A stretch of DNA of 33,123 bases from Anaerobranca gottschalkii DSM 13577 (GTDB taxonomy: Bacteria > Bacillota > Proteinivoracia > Proteinivoracales > Proteinivoracaceae), in contig NZ_FOIF01000022.1 in NCBI RefSeq assembly GCF_900111575.1, forward strand, positions 1-33,123, given 5' to 3'. Position 1 is the stretch's first letter; each line of letters starts with the position of its first letter. Of the stretch, positions 10,090-28,052 are shown piece after piece. A program made the translations under genes and the position numbers. Under the pieces are notes generated by a model. It was not told where the DNA came from. It worked only from the letters and a program-made list of their open reading frames with translations, and did not search any database.

Positions 10090-11604
10090 TTGGAAAAGGA
10101 AAAAATTAAAAGTGGTGGTATCCTTGGTTGGATAGAAAAAGTTGGTAACAGATTACCCCATCCTATCACCTTATTCTTCATATTATCTGTTATCACTTTA
10201 ATTTTATCGTGGTTTGTCAGTTACCTAGGGATTTCTGTAATTCATCCAGTGACAGGGGAAACTGTTCAAGCTGTAAACCTTCTTTCTAGGGAGGGTGTTC
10301 AAAATATTTTTAGCAGGGCAGTAAGTAATTTCACCGGTTTTGCACCACTAGGCACTGTTTTAGTGGCAATGTTAGGTGTTGGTGTTGCCGACAGAACTGG
10401 ATTAATTAAAGCTTTGCTTAAACTCTTGGTTTTAGGGGCACCTGATCGCTTAATAACCGCTGCCGTTGTATTTGCTGGAATAATGTCCAATGTCGCTTCA
10501 GATGCAGGCTATGTAGTGCTAGTACCCTTAGGAGCTATTATCTTTGCTGTAAAAGGGAGACATCCTTTAGCTGGTTTAGCTGCTGCCTTTGCAGGGGTAT
10601 CGGGAGGATTTAGCGCAAACCTACTTTTATCAACTTTAGATCCTTTGTTAGCCGGTTTAACCGCTGAATCTGCAAGGATCCTTGACCCTAATTATTCAGT
10701 AGCGCCTACAGTAAATTGGTATTTTATGATCGCATCTACTTTCTTAATAACCATTGTTGGAACTTGGGTTACTGAAAGGATTGTAGCTCCAAGACTTGGA
10801 AAATATGAAGGAAAACTTGTTGAAAAGTTAGAAGAAGTTACTAAAGAGGAGAAAAAAGGTTTGCTTTGGGCATTGATAGCTTTACTATTAACTGTAGCTT
10901 TCTTTGCCTTCCTAACTGTACCGGAAAATGGTATTTTACGGAATGAACAAGGGCAGTTAATCCAAGGTGTAACTCCTTTTGTCCAAAGTATGGTTCCAAT
11001 AATAGCATTGTTATTCTTAATTCCAGGTATTGCCTTTGGTTTAGCTGTTGGCACAGTTAGAAATAATTACGATATAGCTACTTATTTATCAAAATCTATG
11101 GAAGAAATGGGTGGATATATCGCCTTAGCCTTTGTTGCCGGTCAATTTGTCGCATATTTTAACTGGTCTAACATCGGTACTATTTTAGCGGTATCAGGAG
11201 CAGAGTTTTTACAGACTATTAACCTCACTGGAATTCCTTTAATTGTTATGTTTGTTATCGTAACAGGTTTTATCAATTTGTTCTTAGGAAGTGCTTCAGC
11301 AAAATGGGCTATTATGGCACCGGTTTTTGTTCCCTTGTTTATGCAGCTAGGATATGCTCCTGAGTTTACTCAATTGGCATACCGGATTGGAGATTCAGTA
11401 ACTAATATAATTTCACCTTTAATGCCATATTTTGCTATAATAATTGCTTTTGCTGAGAAATATGATAAAAATGTGGGAATTGGAACTTTAATTTCTACAA
11501 TGTTACCATATTCAATAGCGTTCCTTATAACTTGGACCTTAATGTTGATAGTTTGGTTCTACCTCTTACTACCTATTGGTCCAGGTGGAAGTATTTTTCT
11601 ATAA
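10090..11604 (+). CDS. AbgT-family transporter
   Basis: This 504-residue polytopic membrane protein matches the AbgT family, whose members include E. coli AbgT (p-aminobenzoyl-glutamate uptake) and MtrF/YdaH (drug or folate-precursor efflux). Visible family features are the N-terminal KVGNRLPHP segment, SDAGYVVLVPLGA near residue 138, the re-entrant GGFSANLLLSTLDPLL near 175, and SASAKWAIMAPVFVPLFM followed by the SVTNIISPLMPYF segment near the C-terminus. The start is TTG at 10090, after GAGGAG (10076-10081). It has its own promoter and terminator. The substrate cannot be told from sequence; peptide or aminoacyl conjugates would suit a protein-fermenting anaerobe, but that is speculation. 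Confidence 0.9.
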   Translation: MEKEKIKSGGILGWIEKVGNRLPHPITLFFILSVITLILSWFVSYLGISVIHPVTGETVQAVNLLSREGVQNIFSRAVSNFTGFAPLGTVLVAMLGVGVADRTGLIKALLKLLVLGAPDRLITAAVVFAGIMSNVASDAGYVVLVPLGAIIFAVKGRHPLAGLAAAFAGVSGGFSANLLLSTLDPLLAGLTAESARILDPNYSVAPTVNWYFMIASTFLITIVGTWVTERIVAPRLGKYEGKLVEKLEEVTKEEKKGLLWALIALLLTVAFFAFLTVPENGILRNEQGQLIQGVTPFVQSMVPIIALLFLIPGIAFGLAVGTVRNNYDIATYLSKSMEEMGGYIALAFVAGQFVAYFNWSNIGTILAVSGAEFLQTINLTGIPLIVMFVIVTGFINLFLGSASAKWAIMAPVFVPLFMQLGYAPEFTQLAYRIGDSVTNIISPLMPYFAIIIAFAEKYDKNVGIGTLISTMLPYSIAFLITWTLMLIVWFYLLLPIGPGGSIFL

Positions 11605-12499: not shown

Positions 12500-14734
12500 G
12501 TGAAAAAAATTGGAAGAAATGAACTTTGTCCATGTGGAAGTGGGAAAAAATTTAAAAAATGTTGTGGTTTCTCAAAAGTTACAGTACTATCTTCTAAAAT
12601 AACTTGGCAAGAAATAGAAGAAGTCTTTGAACTTTTTTCACAATTTATAGATAGGGAGAGGGAAAAAATTTTTGATATTTTAATAGATGTCATTCCAGAT
12701 TTGATGTTCGATGAAGATGATTACCAACCCAATGAAATGTTTCAATTTTTGTTAGAATCCATCATTTTTGATTTAGAATTAGAAGGTGAGATCAATTTAT
12801 TTCAAAAATTTCTTAATAAACATAGAAATACTTTAAAAGAGCGGGTTTTAAGGCAAATAGAAAAATGGAAGGATTCATATATATCTTATTACCGGGTAGA
12901 AGATGTAGTTAAAGATAGAGATGATTTGTTGATTATCGTAAAAGATATTTTTACTGAAAAGGAAAAAGAGGTTTATGTTAAATACGAAGATTATGATATA
13001 GAACCTGGAGAAATAATATTGGCTAGATTACTCTCTTTTAACAATAGATATACAGTTATTTCAGAACCTGCTTTTTTTTCAGGAGATATAGAATATGATA
13101 TTAAAGAAACTTTATCAGTTATAAAAAATGAAGTTGAGATACAAGGATTTCCCAGTAATGATTGGGAAGGATTTTTGAAAAAATTTAGTGTTATTCTTAT
13201 AAAAACTTTAATAGAGATGGAAAAGGATTTAAATAATATTAATCAAGATATTAATCCTATAAATGATTTCTATATTAATTTGAAAATCCGTTCTTTTCTT
13301 TTAACACCACAAATAGAGTTGAAAGGTTTAAAGCCTATAGATTTAATATATAATGATAGAAATCAAAAAGAGTTGAAAAAATTTTTTAAAAGGCTTAGAA
13401 ATGGTTTATATGATGATGAAGATATTGAGTATTCCCGATATGCCGACGACATTGAGGAGTTAATGGAAGGGAACTATCATGATATAGAGAATATTCTTTT
13501 ATATGAATGTGAAGATGAAGTTTATATTAATGAGGGTTTGTTATTTTTAAACAAAACCTATGGGCAATATCTTCCAAAAGATGTAGAAACTGTTATAAGG
13601 ATGTGGATAGATTATTCTTGGGAAAAACGACCAAAGATTAAGAAAGAAGGAACTTGGGCGGCTGCGTTGGAGTATCATTTAGGAGAAGCTTTTAATTATC
13701 ACTACAAATCTTCTCAAAAGGAGTTAGCAGATAAGTATGGAGTTTCACCTAGTACAATAAATAGAAATAACCAACTGATAGAGAAATTTATAGCTGAAGT
13801 TACTTCTTTATCTAAGAAATCCCAAATTCTCTTTACATCACCACTGGCAAATCGACCTATAACTGAAAGACATTTAGCTTTAATGGCATATATATCTGAG
13901 CAGCGAAACTTTAGTTCCCATGAAGAAATAAATTTATTTATGGATAAGGTTATGAAAGAAGGGTATCCTCAGGAGTATTTAAAATCTTTACCTAAGAATC
14001 TTAAAGGACAGTTAATAATTTATGATGCTTGGGAAGTTGACAGTCCTAAAGAAAAAATAAAGTTAGCTAAAAAGGCTTTGAAAATTCACCCCCAAAATGC
14101 CGATGCATATGTTTTGCTAGCAGAACATCAAGCTAAATCCTTAGAAGAAGAATTGGCTTTTTATCAAAAAGGTGTTGAAGAGGGGGCAAAGGATTTAGGA
14201 AAAGAGTTATTTGCAGAATTAAAAGGGCATTTTTGGCGTATGGTTATAACTAGGCCATATATGCGGGCTAAATTTGGACTTGCAAACACTTATCGTAAAA
14301 TGGGGCGGTTAGATGAAGCGATAACACATTTTATTGAACTGTTGGAATTAAATCCAAATGATAACCAAGGGGTTAGACATATTCTTGTTCCATGTCTTGT
14401 AGAAAAAGGTGATATTGGGAATGCCCGTAAATGGTTACAAAAATATAATAGAGATAGTAGAGTTGAGGCATTGTATAATGATGCTTTAGTAAGATTTTTT
14501 GAACAAGGAACACCTAGAGCTGATAAAAGTCTAAGAAAGGCTATAAAAAGTAACACATATGTTCCCTATTATCTGTTAGGAAAAAAGGAGATACCTCATC
14601 AATTACCTGAAAGTTATTTACCTGGAGAAGAAGATGAAGGGATTATTTACAGTTATTTTGCTAAAAGTGCTTGGCAAAAGGAAAAGAAGGCTTTAGATTG
14701 GTTGCAAAGGGTTTGGAAAGATTTGCAGGATTAA
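12500..14734 (+). CDS. SEC-C zinc motif protein with HTH and TPR regions
   Basis: This 744-residue protein begins with a SEC-C zinc-binding motif: Cys10, Cys12, Cys21 and Cys22 in NELCPCGSGKKFKKCC. That motif is also found at the end of SecA and in many unrelated proteins. A long acidic, mostly helical middle region has no family I recognise. Around residues 404-428 a helix-turn-helix-like segment (SQKELADKYGVSPSTINRNN) resembles those of sigma factors and transposases. The C-terminal third holds TPR-like repeats, for example HPQNADAYVLLAEHQA and KFGLANTYRKMGRLDEAITH. A role in nucleic-acid or protein interaction is plausible but unproven. The start is GTG at 12500 after AAGGAGATGAT. It lies 34 bases after the esterase gene and 33 before the HD gene. 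Confidence 0.8.
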   Translation: MKKIGRNELCPCGSGKKFKKCCGFSKVTVLSSKITWQEIEEVFELFSQFIDREREKIFDILIDVIPDLMFDEDDYQPNEMFQFLLESIIFDLELEGEINLFQKFLNKHRNTLKERVLRQIEKWKDSYISYYRVEDVVKDRDDLLIIVKDIFTEKEKEVYVKYEDYDIEPGEIILARLLSFNNRYTVISEPAFFSGDIEYDIKETLSVIKNEVEIQGFPSNDWEGFLKKFSVILIKTLIEMEKDLNNINQDINPINDFYINLKIRSFLLTPQIELKGLKPIDLIYNDRNQKELKKFFKRLRNGLYDDEDIEYSRYADDIEELMEGNYHDIENILLYECEDEVYINEGLLFLNKTYGQYLPKDVETVIRMWIDYSWEKRPKIKKEGTWAAALEYHLGEAFNYHYKSSQKELADKYGVSPSTINRNNQLIEKFIAEVTSLSKKSQILFTSPLANRPITERHLALMAYISEQRNFSSHEEINLFMDKVMKEGYPQEYLKSLPKNLKGQLIIYDAWEVDSPKEKIKLAKKALKIHPQNADAYVLLAEHQAKSLEEELAFYQKGVEEGAKDLGKELFAELKGHFWRMVITRPYMRAKFGLANTYRKMGRLDEAITHFIELLELNPNDNQGVRHILVPCLVEKGDIGNARKWLQKYNRDSRVEALYNDALVRFFEQGTPRADKSLRKAIKSNTYVPYYLLGKKEIPHQLPESYLPGEEDEGIIYSYFAKSAWQKEKKALDWLQRVWKDLQD

Positions 14735-14767: not shown

Positions 14768-15319
14768 ATGGATAGAGATCAGGGTATACAGTTAATAAAC
14801 CAATATGTTAAAAATAAAAATTTGATTAAGCATATGTTAGCGACAGAATTTGTTTTAGCCCAGGTTGCTAAAGTTTTAGGAGAAAATGAAGAAAAATGGG
14901 GTCTAGCAGGTTTACTTCATGACATTGATTATGATTTAACACATAACGAACCCCATAAACATAGTATTATTGGAGCTGAAATTTTAGAAAGCCATGGAGT
15001 TGATCCAGATATTGTTTACGCAGTAAAAGTACATAATGAAATCCATGGATTTCCAAGAAAATCCAACTTAGATAAAGCTTTATACAGCGCTGATCCCCTT
15101 ACTGGTTTAATAGTAGCCAGTGCCTTAATACATCCTGATAAAAAACTAAATTCTATCGATACTGGATTTGTTTTAAATAGATTTGCTGAAAAACATTTTG
15201 CCAAAGGTGCTAACCGGGAGCAGATACTAAGTTGTAAAGAATTTGGTTTTTCTTTAGAAGAATTTATCCAAATAGGATTAAAGGGAATGCAGGAAAAACA
15301 TCGGGAGTTAGGGTTATAA
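14768..15319 (+). CDS. HD-domain (HDIG-type) phosphohydrolase
   Basis: The 183-residue protein carries an HD metal-binding domain: His22, His51-Asp52 in GLLHDIDYD, His64/66, His89 and Asp109 in YSADPLTG. Such proteins are metal-dependent phosphohydrolases, often acting on nucleotides. The substrate is unknown, and no partner domain such as a kinase or synthetase is fused. AAAGGAG lies upstream of the ATG. Its TAA stop abuts the stop of the convergent gene within a 12-bp palindrome, and no terminator separates them. Confidence 0.85.
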   Translation: MDRDQGIQLINQYVKNKNLIKHMLATEFVLAQVAKVLGENEEKWGLAGLLHDIDYDLTHNEPHKHSIIGAEILESHGVDPDIVYAVKVHNEIHGFPRKSNLDKALYSADPLTGLIVASALIHPDKKLNSIDTGFVLNRFAEKHFAKGANREQILSCKEFGFSLEEFIQIGLKGMQEKHRELGL

Positions 15320-15325
15320 TTATAA
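15314..15325. repeat. 12-bp palindrome carrying both stop codons
   Basis: TTATAATTATAA is a perfect palindrome. Its TAA at 15317-15319 ends the HD gene, and the TAA complementary to 15320-15322 ends the convergent gene, with no base between the two reading frames. Confidence 0.9.
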
Positions 15326-16879
15326 GCTCACTTCCTTTAAAAAGTTATTTTCATAAACTACCCCAGAAGTATTTCCCGGGATATATAAATTAGGATCGAT
15401 AATTATTTTCTTTATATCTTCCTTAGTCTTTATCAAAGTCAATCCATCCCACTTATACAAAGTTTCGTTGTCTTCATAGACTAGAAGAATTTCTATAGGT
15501 CCTTTCCACCCTTTGTTTTTTTCTAAAAAATTACCTTTAAATTCACTTTTTTCCCATTCCACTTTAGTTAATTCTAAGGAACACTTGCTGTGTTTTTTAA
15601 TAAAATTGTCAGTTAGCCATTTAAGGTCAAGGTCATATTTTTTATTTATTAGAGTGATAAGTTTAGTCCAACTTAGTTGCTGTTCTTGTTTTATTTGTTG
15701 AAGTATTTGATTAATTTTGCCATTAGATAGGAAATTAAGGGTATGGATAAGCAGAACATTTAAAGGATAATTGATTTCCCAGTCTCTTCCTAGACCATAG
15801 GAACTTTTTATTATTGATATATTTTCCCTGTAGCCGATGCTATTTACATAATTTTGTTGGAGTTTTGCTATCATTTGGTAGAAACATTCATCACCATATG
15901 TATCTTTGATTGTTAACAAAGCAGAATATTTAGTAACTCCATTTAGTAACCATATTTCATCGGGATGGGTTAAGGATAAGTTGTTCCACCAATATTTACT
16001 TAACTGGTGAACTAGATTGATAAAATAAAGTTTTTCCCGTTCTTTAGGGTTTTTCCCTTCTTCTTTTATTCTCTCTAATAAACTAGTAGGAATTATTATA
16101 TTATCTCCATCGAAATAAATTTCAAAATCCCCTGGTATTATAGCAATATTTATCAGTAAATTATTAGGATTACCGTAGTTATCAAGGTATTTTTGGACTA
16201 TTAATTTAGTTAGGTTTATTAATGTTCTTGCTTGATTGAGATATTGCCGGGGATACAATAAAGTTATAGTAATATCACCAATCGTTTCCGTTGTTTTTAG
16301 ACTAGGGGTCATAATAAATGAAAGGTTACTGCTATCTCCACCAATAGTTAGGTGTTGCCCATTGTGTTTTAAGGTTTTTCTAATTATTTTACCTCCTGAT
16401 ATAATGTGTAAGCTTTGGGGAATAATTAAATTAACTTCTGAATAATATTTTCCATCTTCCGGTGTATAAGGGAATAACCTACCTCTATTATCAATTAAAA
16501 TACTTTCACTATTGAAAGAAATATATTGACTTTGGGAACAATAATATTTGAAAGTTAAGGTTAAATCTAATGAAATGCTAGGTTTTATGGGCAGCTCTAT
16601 AATTAACAGCTGAATGTTATTAAGAAATCTCAGAGGTTTAGTTTTAAATTTAAGGGGGAGCCCGAGATAGTTAATTTCAAAGGGTTTACAGTCACGGGAT
16701 AATAAAAAGTGGATAGTTTGATTATTATTAGTTGGTCTAAATTTAATGGTAGTTTCAAATTCTACCAATCCTGTTTTTTCTGTCAGGTAGATTTTAGCTG
16801 ATAGTTTAGTGATTTTTTGGGTAAATAGACCTAAAAACCTAGAGTAGAAGCTGGAAATAAAGGGACGGTAAAGGTTCAT
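15320..16879 (-). CDS. M1-aminopeptidase-like protein without the zinc site (pseudopeptidase)
   Basis: The 519-residue protein follows the layout of M1 metallopeptidases: an N-terminal beta-rich domain to about 200, then a catalytic-like domain. The zinc motif that should read HExxHxWW is HQLSKYWW at 291-298, so the catalytic Glu is Gln and the second zinc His is Lys. The downstream WLNEGFAxY motif is WLLNGVTKY at 310-318, so the third ligand Glu is Asn. Zinc binding and peptidase activity are therefore unlikely, while the aromatic scaffold is kept. There is no clear signal peptide. ATG 16879 follows AAGGTGGT on the minus strand. The frame is full length with no internal stops, so it is a maintained gene rather than a decaying one. 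Function unknown. Confidence 0.75.
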   Translation of the reverse strand: MNLYRPFISSFYSRFLGLFTQKITKLSAKIYLTEKTGLVEFETTIKFRPTNNNQTIHFLLSRDCKPFEINYLGLPLKFKTKPLRFLNNIQLLIIELPIKPSISLDLTLTFKYYCSQSQYISFNSESILIDNRGRLFPYTPEDGKYYSEVNLIIPQSLHIISGGKIIRKTLKHNGQHLTIGGDSSNLSFIMTPSLKTTETIGDITITLLYPRQYLNQARTLINLTKLIVQKYLDNYGNPNNLLINIAIIPGDFEIYFDGDNIIIPTSLLERIKEEGKNPKEREKLYFINLVHQLSKYWWNNLSLTHPDEIWLLNGVTKYSALLTIKDTYGDECFYQMIAKLQQNYVNSIGYRENISIIKSSYGLGRDWEINYPLNVLLIHTLNFLSNGKINQILQQIKQEQQLSWTKLITLINKKYDLDLKWLTDNFIKKHSKCSLELTKVEWEKSEFKGNFLEKNKGWKGPIEILLVYEDNETLYKWDGLTLIKTKEDIKKIIIDPNLYIPGNTSGVVYENNFLKEVSL

Positions 16880-17009
16880 TCCATTACACCACCTTAATAC
16901 AAATAATAAAAGTTTATTTGTTAAAATCTATTCAGGAAAAAATAAAAAATTCCTTTTTTATTAAAAAAAATAAATTATATTTTTTCAATATAATATTAGG
17001 AGGATTACT

Positions 17010-19121
17010 ATGAGAGAAAAAATATTGCAATTCATGAAAGAAGAAGCGTATAAACCTTTGACATTAGAAGAATTGGTATCAACTTTAGGGCTAAAGGGTG
17101 AAGAAATTGTCATATTTCAAAATGTTTTAGAGGATATGGAAAGGGAAGGGGAAATAATTAAAACAAGGGCAAATCGATACGGCGTTCCAGAACGGATGAA
17201 TCTAGTTGTAGGTATTTTGCAGGGGAACCCTAAAGGTTATGCCTTTTTAACCCCCATAAATCCTGATCTAGATGATGTTTATGTAAGTTCCACTGATCTT
17301 AATGGAGCAATGCATAATGATAAAGTTGTGGTAAGGTTACATAAAGGTGGATTTATAGGGAAACAAGAAGGAGAAGTTATCCGGATTCTTAATAGGGCCA
17401 ATACTACTGTAGTTGGTACTTTTGTTAAAAGCCGTAATTTTGGTTTTGTGATACCTGAGGATAAAAGGATTGCTCAAGATATCTTTGTTTCTAAAAGTGA
17501 TTTCGCTGGTGCAGAAAATAATGATGTAGTTGTTGTGGAAATTACAAGATGGCCAGAACCAAGGCGAAATCCAGAAGGTAGAGTTATTCAAAGGCTAGGG
17601 AACAAAAATGCCCCTGGTATTGATATTTTAGCTATTATGGCTAAACATAAATTACCTATGGAGTTTCCTAAAAGTGTCTTAGAGGAATTAAAGGATGTAC
17701 CGGAAATAGTAAGGGAACAAGACTTAAAAAACCGGAAAGACTTTAGAAACTTACCTATAGTTACTATAGATGGTGAAGATGCTAAAGATTTAGATGACGC
17801 CGTTTACGTAAAAAAACAGAATAATGGTAACTTCTACTTAAGTGTCCATATCGCCGATGTATCTTATTATGTTCAGCCCAATACCGAAATAGATAAAGAA
17901 GCTTATTCCAGGGGTACTTCCGTTTACCTAGTAGATAGGGTAATCCCTATGCTTCCTGAAAAGTTATCTAACGGAATTTGTAGTTTAAATCCAAAAATAG
18001 ATAGATTGACTTTATCATTAGAGATGGAAATAGATCCAACGGGGAAAGTTGTGGAATACGATATTACTCAAGGAGTAATAAAGACTGTAGAAAGAATGAC
18101 ATATACAGCGGTCAATAAAATTTTGGTGGATAATGATCATGAAACTTCTCAACGGTATAAGGATTTAATCCCGATGTTTAGGGAAATGCATGAATTGATG
18201 GAAATCTTAAATAATCGGCGGATGAAGAGGGGGGCAATTGACTTTGATTTTCCTGAATCAAAGGTAGAATTGGATAGTGAAGGTAAACCTGTTAGAATTG
18301 TGCCCCGGGAAAGAAGTGTTGCGGAAAAAATTATTGAAGAATTTATGCTAGTTGCTAATGAAACGGTGGCAGAACACATCGCCCGTATGGAACTTCCCTT
18401 TATCTATCGAATCCATGAAAAACCAGCTTTAGAAAAAATCACTACTTTAAATGAGTTTATTTATAATTTTGGTTATCATATTAAGGGCTCTGCAGATAAT
18501 CTTCATCCTAAAGCTATCCAAGAGCTTTTGAAAAAAGTAAAAGGAAAAAAAGAAGAAAAAATTATCAATACAGTTGTTTTGAGATCAATGAAACAAGCTA
18601 AATATAGTGGGGAAAACTTAGGTCACTTTGGTCTAGCAGCCCAATATTATACCCACTTTACTTCACCTATTCGCCGTTATCCAGACTTAATAGTTCATCG
18701 GATTTTAAGGTGGTTATTAACCGGTCAATTAACGGAAAAGAGGATCAAAAACTTAAATAAAAATATGGCTATTTATGCCCTTCATACCTCAGTACAAGAG
18801 CGGAAGGCAGAAGAGGCGGAACGGGAAACATTAGATTTAAAGAAAGTGGAATACATGGAAAGGCATTTAGGGGAAGCCTTTGAAGGTATTATCAGTTCCG
18901 TTACCAATTTCGGTATGTTTGTGGAATTAGAAAACACAGTAGAAGGATTAGTTCACATTAGTACATTAATAGATGATTATTATCACTTTAATGAAAAGAC
19001 CTATTCTTTAGTAGGGGAACGGACTAGAAAAACCTATAAATTAGGGGACAAAGTTAAAATTAGGGTAGCAAGGGTAAATAAAGAAGAAAAAAATATAGAT
19101 TTTATTTTAATATCCCCTTGA
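17010..19121 (+). CDS. rnr: Ribonuclease R
   Basis: A 3'-to-5' exoribonuclease that degrades structured RNA and, with SmpB and tmRNA, non-stop messages. The 703-residue protein has an N-terminal winged helix (to about 60), cold-shock domains (about 60-220), the RNB catalytic domain with Asp254, Asp260, Asp262 and Asp263 in IDGEDAKDLDDA, and a C-terminal S1 domain near 625-700 (SVTNFGMFVELENTVEGLVH). It ends right after S1, without the basic tail of the E. coli enzyme. AGGAGG lies just upstream of the ATG. It precedes smpB and ssrA as in many Firmicutes. The 130-base divergent gap to the pseudopeptidase is extremely AT-rich; I see no convincing promoter in it. Confidence 0.96.
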   Translation: MREKILQFMKEEAYKPLTLEELVSTLGLKGEEIVIFQNVLEDMEREGEIIKTRANRYGVPERMNLVVGILQGNPKGYAFLTPINPDLDDVYVSSTDLNGAMHNDKVVVRLHKGGFIGKQEGEVIRILNRANTTVVGTFVKSRNFGFVIPEDKRIAQDIFVSKSDFAGAENNDVVVVEITRWPEPRRNPEGRVIQRLGNKNAPGIDILAIMAKHKLPMEFPKSVLEELKDVPEIVREQDLKNRKDFRNLPIVTIDGEDAKDLDDAVYVKKQNNGNFYLSVHIADVSYYVQPNTEIDKEAYSRGTSVYLVDRVIPMLPEKLSNGICSLNPKIDRLTLSLEMEIDPTGKVVEYDITQGVIKTVERMTYTAVNKILVDNDHETSQRYKDLIPMFREMHELMEILNNRRMKRGAIDFDFPESKVELDSEGKPVRIVPRERSVAEKIIEEFMLVANETVAEHIARMELPFIYRIHEKPALEKITTLNEFIYNFGYHIKGSADNLHPKAIQELLKKVKGKKEEKIINTVVLRSMKQAKYSGENLGHFGLAAQYYTHFTSPIRRYPDLIVHRILRWLLTGQLTEKRIKNLNKNMAIYALHTSVQERKAEEAERETLDLKKVEYMERHLGEAFEGIISSVTNFGMFVELENTVEGLVHISTLIDDYYHFNEKTYSLVGERTRKTYKLGDKVKIRVARVNKEEKNIDFILISP

Positions 19122-19259: not shown

Positions 19260-19712
19260 ATGAAAATTATAACAGAAAATAGAAAAGCGAGACATGAATA
19301 TTTTATAAAAGAAACATATGAAGCAGGCCTTGTTTTAACAGGAACAGAGGTTAAGTCTATCCGCAATGGCAGGGTTAATTTAAAGGACTCTTTTGTAAGG
19401 ATAGACAATGGTGAGGCTTTTGTTTATGGGATGCATATAAGTCCTTACGAACAAGGTAACCGTTTTAATCATGAGCCATTAAGGGAAAGAAAACTCCTCC
19501 TACACAAAAGGGAGATAAATAAATTATTTGGCTTAACTAGGGAAAAGGGCTTAGCTTTAATTCCTTTAAAACTATACTTTGTAAAGGGAAGGGTAAAAAT
19601 GGAACTAGCCCTTGCTCAAGGTAAGAAACTCCATGATAAAAGGGCAGCTATTGCTGAGAAAACGGCAAAGAGGGAAATTGAAAAAGCCTTTAGAGAAAGG
19701 CAAAAAATTTAG
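19260..19712 (+). CDS. smpB: SsrA-binding protein SmpB
   Basis: It binds tmRNA and brings it to stalled ribosomes. The 150-residue protein has the family hallmarks: [11 protein letters not shown] near the start, [20 protein letters not shown] (about 22-41), the [17 protein letters not shown] segment, and the basic C-terminal tail [20 protein letters not shown] that enters the mRNA channel. GAGGTGGTG precedes the ATG. It is directly upstream of ssrA, its RNA partner. Confidence 0.98.
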
Positions 19713-19780: not shown

Positions 19781-20131
19781 GGGGGCGTACTGGTTTCGAC
19801 GGGGGTAGTTGATGCAGGAGTAGCGAGCCGAGGGCCAGGGCCTCGTAAAAAACTGGAACTTTAAAATAAACGCTAACAAAAATTTAGCTTACGCTGCTTA
19901 ATTAAGCAGCCGTCTTATCTCCGGTTTGTCTGCAACTGGGGAATAAGGCGTCACAACCAGCAGACTACCTATCAAAAGTGCTTCGGTTTGATAGGGAAAC
20001 TTAGAAGCTAGCACTTTTAAGACTTTGTCTCTAGAGGCTTAAAGGTGCGAAACTCAAAGTAGAGACTGCGCTCGGAGAGACTGCTGTTGAGATGCCTTCG
20101 GACAGGGGTTCGACTCCCCTCGCCTCCACCA
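19781..20131 (+). ncRNA. ssrA: tmRNA (ssrA)
   Basis: It rescues stalled ribosomes by acting as a tRNA and then as a message. The 5' end GGGGGCG pairs with CGCCTCC near the 3' end to form a 7-bp acceptor stem with one G-U. The hallmark TGGTTTCGACGGGGG follows the 5' end. The T arm AGGGG-TTCGACT-CCCCT and an encoded CCA (20129-20131) close the molecule. The tag reading frame starts at GCT 19872 and encodes ANKNLAYAA before TAA at 19899; with the charged alanine the tag is AANKNLAYAA. The stop lies in the hairpin GCTGCTTAATTAAGCAGC (19893-19910). The order rnr-smpB-ssrA is typical. Confidence 0.98.
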
Positions 20132-26591: not shown

Positions 26592-28052
26592 ATGGCAGAA
26601 AAAAATATTGGATGGAATTTTCAAAATAGCTATCCATCTTTGCCTAAAATATTCTATAGTGTAATAAAACCAACTCCAGTTTCTAATCCCAAACTAGCTA
26701 TACTTAACCATAATCTAGGGAAAGATCTAGGTTTAGATACTGAAAAGTTAGCCCAAAAAGAAGGGATAGAAATTTTAGCAGGAAACTCAATTCCCCAAGG
26801 AGCCTTTCCTATAGCCCAATCATATGCTGGTCATCAGTTTGGCTATTTTACTATGCTAGGAGATGGTCGGGCCCATCTCCTAGGAGAACATATTACTCCA
26901 TCTGGGGGAAGGGTTGATATACAATTGAAAGGTTCAGGTAAAACCCCTTATTCTAGAGGGGGAGATGGAAGGGCTGCTTTAGGACCGATGTTAAGGGAAT
27001 ATATTATTAGTGAGGGAATGTATTTCTTAGGCATTCCTACTACAAGAAGCTTAGCTGTTGTTATTACTGGAGAAAAGGTATTTCGAGAAAAAGAATTACC
27101 TGGGGCAATTTTAACTAGGGTAGCTTCTAGTCACATAAGGGTTGGAACTTTTCAGTATGGAGCTAGGTGGGGAACATTAGAGGAGCTAAAAGCTTTAACA
27201 GACTATACAATAAACCGCCATTTTCCTGAAGCCTTTTCATCAGAATCACCTTACCGATACTTTTTAGATGAAGTGATAAGAAGGCAAGCAAGACTAATTG
27301 CCAGTTGGCAACTAATTGGCTTTGTCCATGGAGTGATGAATACTGACAATATGGCTATTAGTGGTGAAACTATTGATTATGGACCATGTGCTTTTTTAGA
27401 TACTTATAACCCCAAAACTGTTTTTAGTTCAATAGATAGACATGGAAGGTATGCTTTTATGAATCAAGGGAAAATAGGGGCATGGAATTTGGCGAGATTT
27501 GCTGAGACATTATTACCTTTACTAGATTCCGATGAAGGTAAGGCTTTGGAAATTGCTCAATGCTCTTTAGATAAGTACTTCCAATTATTTGATAGTTATT
27601 GGCTTAATGGAATGAGGAAAAAGCTTGGATTATTCAATGAGGAAAAAGAAGATAAACAGTTAATCCATACTTTGTTGGATATTTTGGAAAAGTATCAAGG
27701 TGACTATACAAATACCTTTAGAGCATTGACTTTAGGGGATTTGCAAGATGAATTATTACAAAAACAGGAATTCAAATATTGGTATAATAAATGGCAAAAT
27801 AGACTAAGGAGACAACCTCAAGGAAAAGAAGAAGTAGAAAGGTTAATGAAAAGTGTAAATCCAAGTATTATTCCCCGTAACCATAGAGTAGAAGAGGCTT
27901 TAGAAGGGGCGGTGGAAAGAAACGATTATTCTGTAATGAAAAATCTCCTTAAAGCTCTAGAAAAACCCTATAACTATGATGAAAATAACGACTATTATAT
28001 TTCTCCTCCACCAAAGGGATGTCCACCTTATAGGACTTTTTGTGGAACATAG
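26592..28052 (+). CDS. selO: Protein adenylyltransferase SelO (YdiU/UPF0061)
   Basis: SelO is a kinase-fold enzyme that transfers AMP from ATP to Ser, Thr or Tyr of target proteins and is linked to redox stress. The 486-residue protein has the full family pattern: [20 protein letters not shown], Lys113 in [28 protein letters not shown], then HGVMNTDNM with Asn250 and Asp252, and the metal loop DYGPCAFLD with Asp262. Cys266 and the near-terminal Cys484 in the FCGT end match the redox cysteine pair of bacterial SelO. AAAGGAG precedes the ATG; TTGCAA (26536) with TATCTT (26558) is a weak promoter candidate. The TAG stop is made by the left boundary of the fold-back element. Confidence 0.95.

Follow-up and report, generated by a model that had tools for sequence, protein, structure and literature searches.

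A probable M1-fold pseudopeptidase that has lost its zinc site is retained across the bacterial class Proteinivoracia

The 33,123-nucleotide stretch of DNA from Anaerobranca gottschalkii DSM 13577 analyzed here (contig NZ_FOIF01000022.1, positions 1 to 33,123; called the window) carries a gene for a protein that resembles the M1 peptidases. The product is likely a cytosolic M1-fold pseudopeptidase whose zinc site was lost and which has been kept throughout the window's class, Proteinivoracia, for a non-catalytic binding role. Judging from the residues at the former centre, the protein would hold no zinc and carry out no hydrolysis. The retained scaffold would serve in binding, as thought for TAF2 (TFIID subunit 2) and for Tma108. 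The coordinates of the gene, its motifs and its neighbors are collected in Table 1.

The motifs HQLSKYWW at residue 291 and WLLNGVTKY at residue 310, noticed in a preliminary description of the window, were both found at these residues within an intact open reading frame (ORF) of 519 codons. When the window protein was aligned with HExxH-bearing relatives, Glu 292 was replaced by Gln, the second His at 295 by Lys and the Glu ligand at 313 by Asn. This agrees with the earlier statement that the catalytic Glu, one zinc His and the Glu ligand are changed. The heading of that description, that all zinc ligands were replaced, was too strong because His 291 remains; the changes affect two of the three ligands together with the catalytic Glu. 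His 291 itself looks incidental, since the same-genus orthologue, 73% identical to the window protein, has Gln at 291 (and Asn at 295), and His is found at 291 in only 1 of the 13 class orthologues, the window protein. The aromatic scaffold is kept as described, with W310 in 13/13 class orthologues and W297 in 12/13.

Searched alone, the window protein matched nothing in Pfam or NCBIfam at E<=10, and its matches in a sequence search of the PDB were at chance level, so that its M1 kinship is visible only via relatives or the predicted fold. Two alignments were used for the profile searches: A1, with 12 pseudopeptidase rows, and A2, with 18 rows, six of them HExxH-bearing outgroups. The A1 profile matched 45 PDB sequences at E<=1 (best 9.1e-8), all of them named aminopeptidase, F3 factor, putative zinc metalloprotease or TFIID subunit 2. 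With this pseudopeptidase-only profile the best PDB matches were tied between TAF2 (9.1e-8) and ERAP2 (1.5e-7), and the addition of the six HExxH-bearing relatives brought the E value to 1.8e-17. One class orthologue matched PF01433 directly at 1.2e-5, under the curated cut-off, and 11 of the 18 A2 rows, hence at least 5 of the 12 pseudopeptidase rows, matched it at E<=1.

The A1 profile was also searched against the phylum, in 398 genomes drawn from a larger group with at most three candidates scored per genome, a setting in which relatives were possibly missed. Matches were obtained in 69 of the 398 genomes, 13 in the class and 56 outside. The best ORF was taken from each of 61 out-of-family loci, 60 of them from the 56 out-of-class genomes and one a further M1 gene of the class genome G009. 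HExxH followed by Glu 17-20 residues on was present in 59 of these 61 other M1 relatives (58/60 outside the class) and missing from two. That the window protein is an M1 relative by descent is well supported by these data.

The predicted structure leads to the same result. The AlphaFold2 model of the window protein, made from the 18-row alignment, had a predicted local distance difference test score (pLDDT) of 86.3 and a predicted template modelling score (pTM) of 0.86. In a fold comparison it matched puromycin-sensitive aminopeptidase (VIA Z 26.8, 487 residues aligned, root-mean-square deviation (rmsd) 3.9). The best Foldseek match had an E value of 2.1e-23 and a template modelling score of 0.73 on the query, and the best 50 of 743 Foldseek matches were M1 aminopeptidases and one TFIID entry. 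A predicted fold that is not M1 had been named as an outcome that would refute the earlier observation; in the comparison with M1 structures the fold is M1 over nearly the whole length. A class member of 416 amino acids was modelled as well (pLDDT 87.3) and matched M1 with Z 31.8, 366 residues aligned and rmsd 3.6. Because this short member is still predicted to be M1, the C-terminal part is dispensable in some lineages.

Orthology within the class was judged from a single set of 13 genomes. In a search of 61 genomes, matches were found in 15, namely the 13 of the class and two weak ones outside, the latter being M1 proteins with HExxH; with a distant orthologue as the query, the orthologue was present in 13/13 class genomes. 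The G006 orthologue appears as two pieces owing to a masked stretch. Its row, L023, crosses that stretch and continues in another frame, so its motif columns are sound and its later columns, branch length and pairwise values are unreliable; it was excluded from alignments A1, A2 and A4 and included in the out-of-class M1 search profile and the trees. The row L021 starts at a contig end. The M1-like protein is probably cytosolic because hydropathy suggested no signal peptide or membrane helix in 13/13 members, of which one row starts at a contig end; the highest 19-residue mean was 1.58, in L017.

The HExxH motif was found in 0/13 class orthologues. Close homologues with an intact HExxH, which had been named as a sign of recent decay, were thus not found. 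The loss of HExxH is common to all 13, and the residues at 291, 295 and 313 differ among the members. Position 295, the old second His, is Lys in four, Arg in three, His in four, Asn in one and Gln in one, so that Lys, Arg or His stands there in 11/13. Position 313, the old Glu ligand, is acidic in 9/13. Four members retain the second His and the Glu, with LAHHWL together with EGLAEY or EALAEY. At the start of the catalytic-domain-like part, Y209, P210, N215 and Q216 are invariant in 12/12 aligned rows.

A phylogenetic tree was built from 74 proteins, without TAF2, and a second tree was obtained by a quick search. A branch with support of 98/93 separates the 13 pseudopeptidases from all other proteins of the tree, and in a tree without the motif columns this grouping had a value of 92 in the Shimodaira-Hasegawa-like approximate likelihood ratio test (SH-aLRT). 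The nearest outgroups are HExxH-bearing M1 proteins whose mutual order is unresolved. They are same-phylum proteins of 515-578 amino acids in families f52 and f98 (L076-L083, L085 and L125), which from their sequences may be called M1 proteins and putative aminopeptidases. They differ from the window protein in an intact HExxHxWW and Glu, and the six of the ten that were aligned are 13-16% identical to it. The DNA retrieved around L076-L083 and L085 gave no rnr or HD hydrolase match. It is well supported that the loss of HExxH...E is old, because none of the 13 class orthologues has HExxH. A single loss that preceded the diversification of the class is the simplest explanation.

The exopeptidase motif of M1 peptidases, GxMEN, is present in 0/13 class orthologues; its absence was considered as a sign of lost function and dropped. 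It does not discriminate because, among the 61 other M1 relatives, the strict form is missing from 60 and present in 1, GxME is present in 30/61, and none of the seven nearest outgroups checked has GxME.

Selection was measured by comparing the window gene with its same-genus orthologue. The nonsynonymous rate (dN) was 0.162 and the synonymous rate (dS) 0.93, which gives a dN/dS of 0.17 (95% bootstrap interval 0.13-0.23), and the three protein parts had values of 0.17, 0.16 and 0.19. This dN/dS, the presence in 13/13 genomes and the fixed position of the gene support the earlier suggestion that selection acts for a non-catalytic role; the role itself we infer. The four former catalytic columns had a mean entropy of 2.31, whereas their neighbors in the two helices averaged 1.51 (P 0.008), in a post hoc test chosen once the columns had been seen. 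The variation of the catalytic columns, together with the near-fixed W310 and W297, indicates a scaffold that is maintained around a drifting former centre.

Table 1 Features of the window around the M1-like gene and residue ranges of its product.
Feature	Coordinates	Strand	Remarks
M1-like pseudopeptidase gene	15320..16879	-	intact ORF, 519 codons/519 amino acids
Protein parts			N-terminal beta domain ~1-208; catalytic-domain-like part ~209-435; C-terminal beta part ~436-519; borders from the secondary structure of the model
YPRQYLNQAR, family signature	16226..16255	-	residues 209-218, start of catalytic-like domain
HQLSKYWW, degenerate HExxHxWW	15986..16009	-	residues 291-298; aligned with HETAHIWW / HEIAHCWW of outgroup M1 proteins
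WLLNGVTKY, degenerate WLNEGFAxY	15926..15952	-	residues 310-318; Asn in place of the Glu ligand at 313
AbgT-type transporter gene	10090..11604		
SEC-C + TPR protein gene	12500..14734		
HD-domain hydrolase gene	14768..15319	+	PF01966; convergent with M1-like gene, stop codons abut
Divergent intergenic region, M1-like gene/rnr	16880..17009		130 bp
rnr (RNase R)	17010..19121	+	RNB domain; divergent neighbor
smpB	19260..19712	+	PF01668
Transfer-messenger RNA (tmRNA, ssrA)	19781..20131	+	tag ANKNLAYAA
SelO gene	26592..28052		Pfam: protein adenylyltransferase SelO

The position of the gene is the same across the class. The HD hydrolase gene lies convergently at the 3' side of the M1-like gene in 13/13 class loci, and rnr lies divergently at the 5' side in 12/12 class loci whose contig reaches that far. 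A recent arrival in the window species by horizontal transfer or on a mobile element was rejected, since the same hydrolase neighbor is found in all 13. The hydrolase side also carries an esterase-like gene, a proton pyrophosphatase gene and a gene that we take from its sequence to be enolase. In the window, the genes for a SEC-C + TPR protein and an AbgT-type transporter lie between the pyrophosphatase and the hydrolase; in the same-genus locus L016, which is without these two genes, pyrophosphatase, esterase and hydrolase are contiguous. A simple promoter scan listed no promoter-like site in the 130-bp gap, the sigma-70 scan did no better than shuffles, and a terminator scan found none.

The HD hydrolase was found in 99 of 119 genomes, 95 out of class and 4 in class, and 20 out-of-class loci, chosen mainly from the better hydrolase matches among the 95 genomes, were compared. 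In 13 of the 20, hydrolase and rnr share a strand and are separated by no more than one listed ORF, and the M1-like gene was found in 0/20 (BLASTP, 1e-6). In the seven loci where rnr was unlabelled, smpB follows the hydrolase in two, the contig ends in one, an overlapping ORF displaces the hydrolase in L142, and other genes are present in three. The hydrolase-rnr-smpB run is older than the M1-like gene, which was, most simply, placed inverted into the run and stayed. The neighbors being an older arrangement, the event can be dated, and there is little reason to tie the function of the protein to RNase R. A functional link to rnr-smpB-ssrA was considered and is weakened, as the 13 out-of-class loci have hydrolase and rnr without the M1-like gene.

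From these data the following course may be proposed. An M1 gene would have come to lie inverted between the HD hydrolase gene and rnr in the class ancestor. The HExxH...E zinc site was then lost, in the simplest case by a single event that preceded the diversification of the class, and purifying selection has since kept the gene, whose product is probably non-catalytic. The retained M1 scaffold may bind another protein or a peptide instead of hydrolyzing it. The centre would be held without metal, and in some members a charge pair could replace the metal as a 295-313 salt bridge: all nine members that are acidic at 313 have Lys, Arg or His at 295. The bridge need not apply to the window protein, which has Lys with Asn at these positions.

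Several observations weigh against retention for a binding role. The chance of the charge pairing by simple counting, uncorrected for kinship, is 6/78 = 0.077, which is weak. Residues 280-330 around the old site have a dN/dS of 0.25, and rnr in the same species pair has 0.043 as compared with 0.17, so that the M1-like gene evolves faster; the M1-like protein is constrained, yet freer than a housekeeping enzyme. When the comparison is extended to all 408 scored columns, the higher variability of the catalytic columns is no longer clear (P 0.098). Three members, all of the window's own family, are shorter and without the C-terminal part, with 458, 416 and 419 amino acids (L017 8081-9457, L018 7622-8872 and L019 8043-9302); in these loci about 16-71 bp separate the stop codon from the end of the hydrolase gene. 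Since the arrangement of the neighboring genes is older, little can be learned about function from the locus.

Other explanations were weighed against the same data. The old substrate cleft might hold peptides or nascent-chain N-termini uncut, as Tma108 may do, perhaps near ribosome rescue. The M1 scaffold kept in the fold match, the probable cytosolic location (no 19-residue stretch above 1.58 hydropathy in 13/13), the divergent rnr in 12/12 testable loci with smpB and ssrA next door, and the precedent of Tma108 as given in part of a review (PMC11266112) are in line with this. We regard it as unlikely, given that the former catalytic columns do not show the conservation of a new site, that the hydrolase-rnr neighborhood predates the M1-like gene, and that Tma108 is said in the same part of the review to keep all active-site residues but one (PMC11266112), which the class pseudopeptidases do not. 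It is a long shot that the protein works with the ribosome or with RNase R-SmpB-tmRNA quality control and binds peptide or protein ends uncut. If true, it would be a prokaryotic counterpart of Tma108, Ebp1 and TAF2 that matters in a whole bacterial class. That the protein has gained a new catalytic activity, or binds a metal or other ligand with a re-made site, appears quite improbable: no polar residue set at the old centre is common to all 13, and the variable catalytic columns make it somewhat less likely that a single conserved ligand has taken the place of zinc, even with the second His and Glu kept in four members and the invariant Y209, P210, N215 and Q216 as a possible functional patch. 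The window also encodes SelO, a pseudokinase-fold enzyme later found to have another activity, and this history advises caution against calling the M1-like protein inert.

Decay was judged in the same way. The faster evolution than rnr, the C-termini shortened in 3/13 and the lost ligands are what a decaying relic of a peptidase gene would display; the dN/dS of 0.17 (0.13-0.23), the retention in 13/13 genomes and the old loss implied by a motif in 0/13 make this very improbable, and a recent pseudogene was rejected on the dN/dS and the presence in all 13 genomes. A chance likeness of motifs in a protein that is not an M1 relative would fit the failure of the window protein alone to match Pfam, NCBIfam or PDB sequences above chance, and with fold and profile both pointing to M1 its probability is close to negligible. 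An anti-phage defence protein was also considered and set aside, with 0 PADLOC families at E<=0.01 in the 3 of 13 members scanned.

A pseudopeptidase retained for binding would form a class-wide bacterial branch of a kind that is already known, the M1 pseudopeptidases. MEROPS lists non-peptidase homologues within its families and may well include single bacterial cases. Among the matches listed in a search of open papers, no title or abstract start described a bacterial M1 pseudopeptidase. To our knowledge, the M1 pseudopeptidases that can be named are all eukaryotic, namely TAF2 and Tma108. TAF2 is an M1 pseudopeptidase that acts as a scaffold. Like the class pseudopeptidases it has an M1-like sequence and fold without HExxH, with QSLAQ at the HExxH place in the alignment to the pseudopeptidase profile, and it differs in being eukaryotic and in its chain of 1199 amino acids; the two losses are taken as independent. 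Part of a TFIID article describes TAF2 as a predicted aminopeptidase-like fold in the central lobe of the complex (PMC4309443). In the sections of the review of metallopeptidase pseudoenzymes cited above, the yeast nascent-chain-associated protein Tma108 is the M1 case, of uncertain catalytic status, and is thought to bind chains that are possibly left uncut, which resembles the role proposed here; all its active-site residues but one are kept for substrate binding, whereas the class pseudopeptidases have lost the centre (PMC11266112).

The position-fixed set of orthologues suggests that the M1 fold can be kept for apparently non-catalytic work in bacteria too, and it offers a small protein, down to 416 amino acids, for finding what such an M1 scaffold binds. 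Proteins of this kind are easily overlooked or misnamed: the window protein has no library match, and at least one site-less orthologue resembles the Peptidase_M1 model.

The genome that encodes the window protein gave no PF01433 match at E<=0.001, which makes it unlikely that the protein regulates an intact M1 partner in this genome. Of the 13 class members, G009 alone yielded a separate intact M1 gene. This second M1 protein (L087 46-1215, 389 amino acids) has an intact HELAHLWW and is encoded on contig C85, and the pseudopeptidase gene is on C77. The two out-of-family relatives without HExxH in their M1-like part belong to family f11: L112 (686-3421, 911 amino acids) and L132 (1059-3737, 892 amino acids). 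By eye, the N-terminus of both resembles a signal sequence, and neither matched Pfam at E<=0.01. They share the missing HExxH with the class pseudopeptidases but are larger, and their place elsewhere in the tree indicates a second, separate loss of the M1 site.
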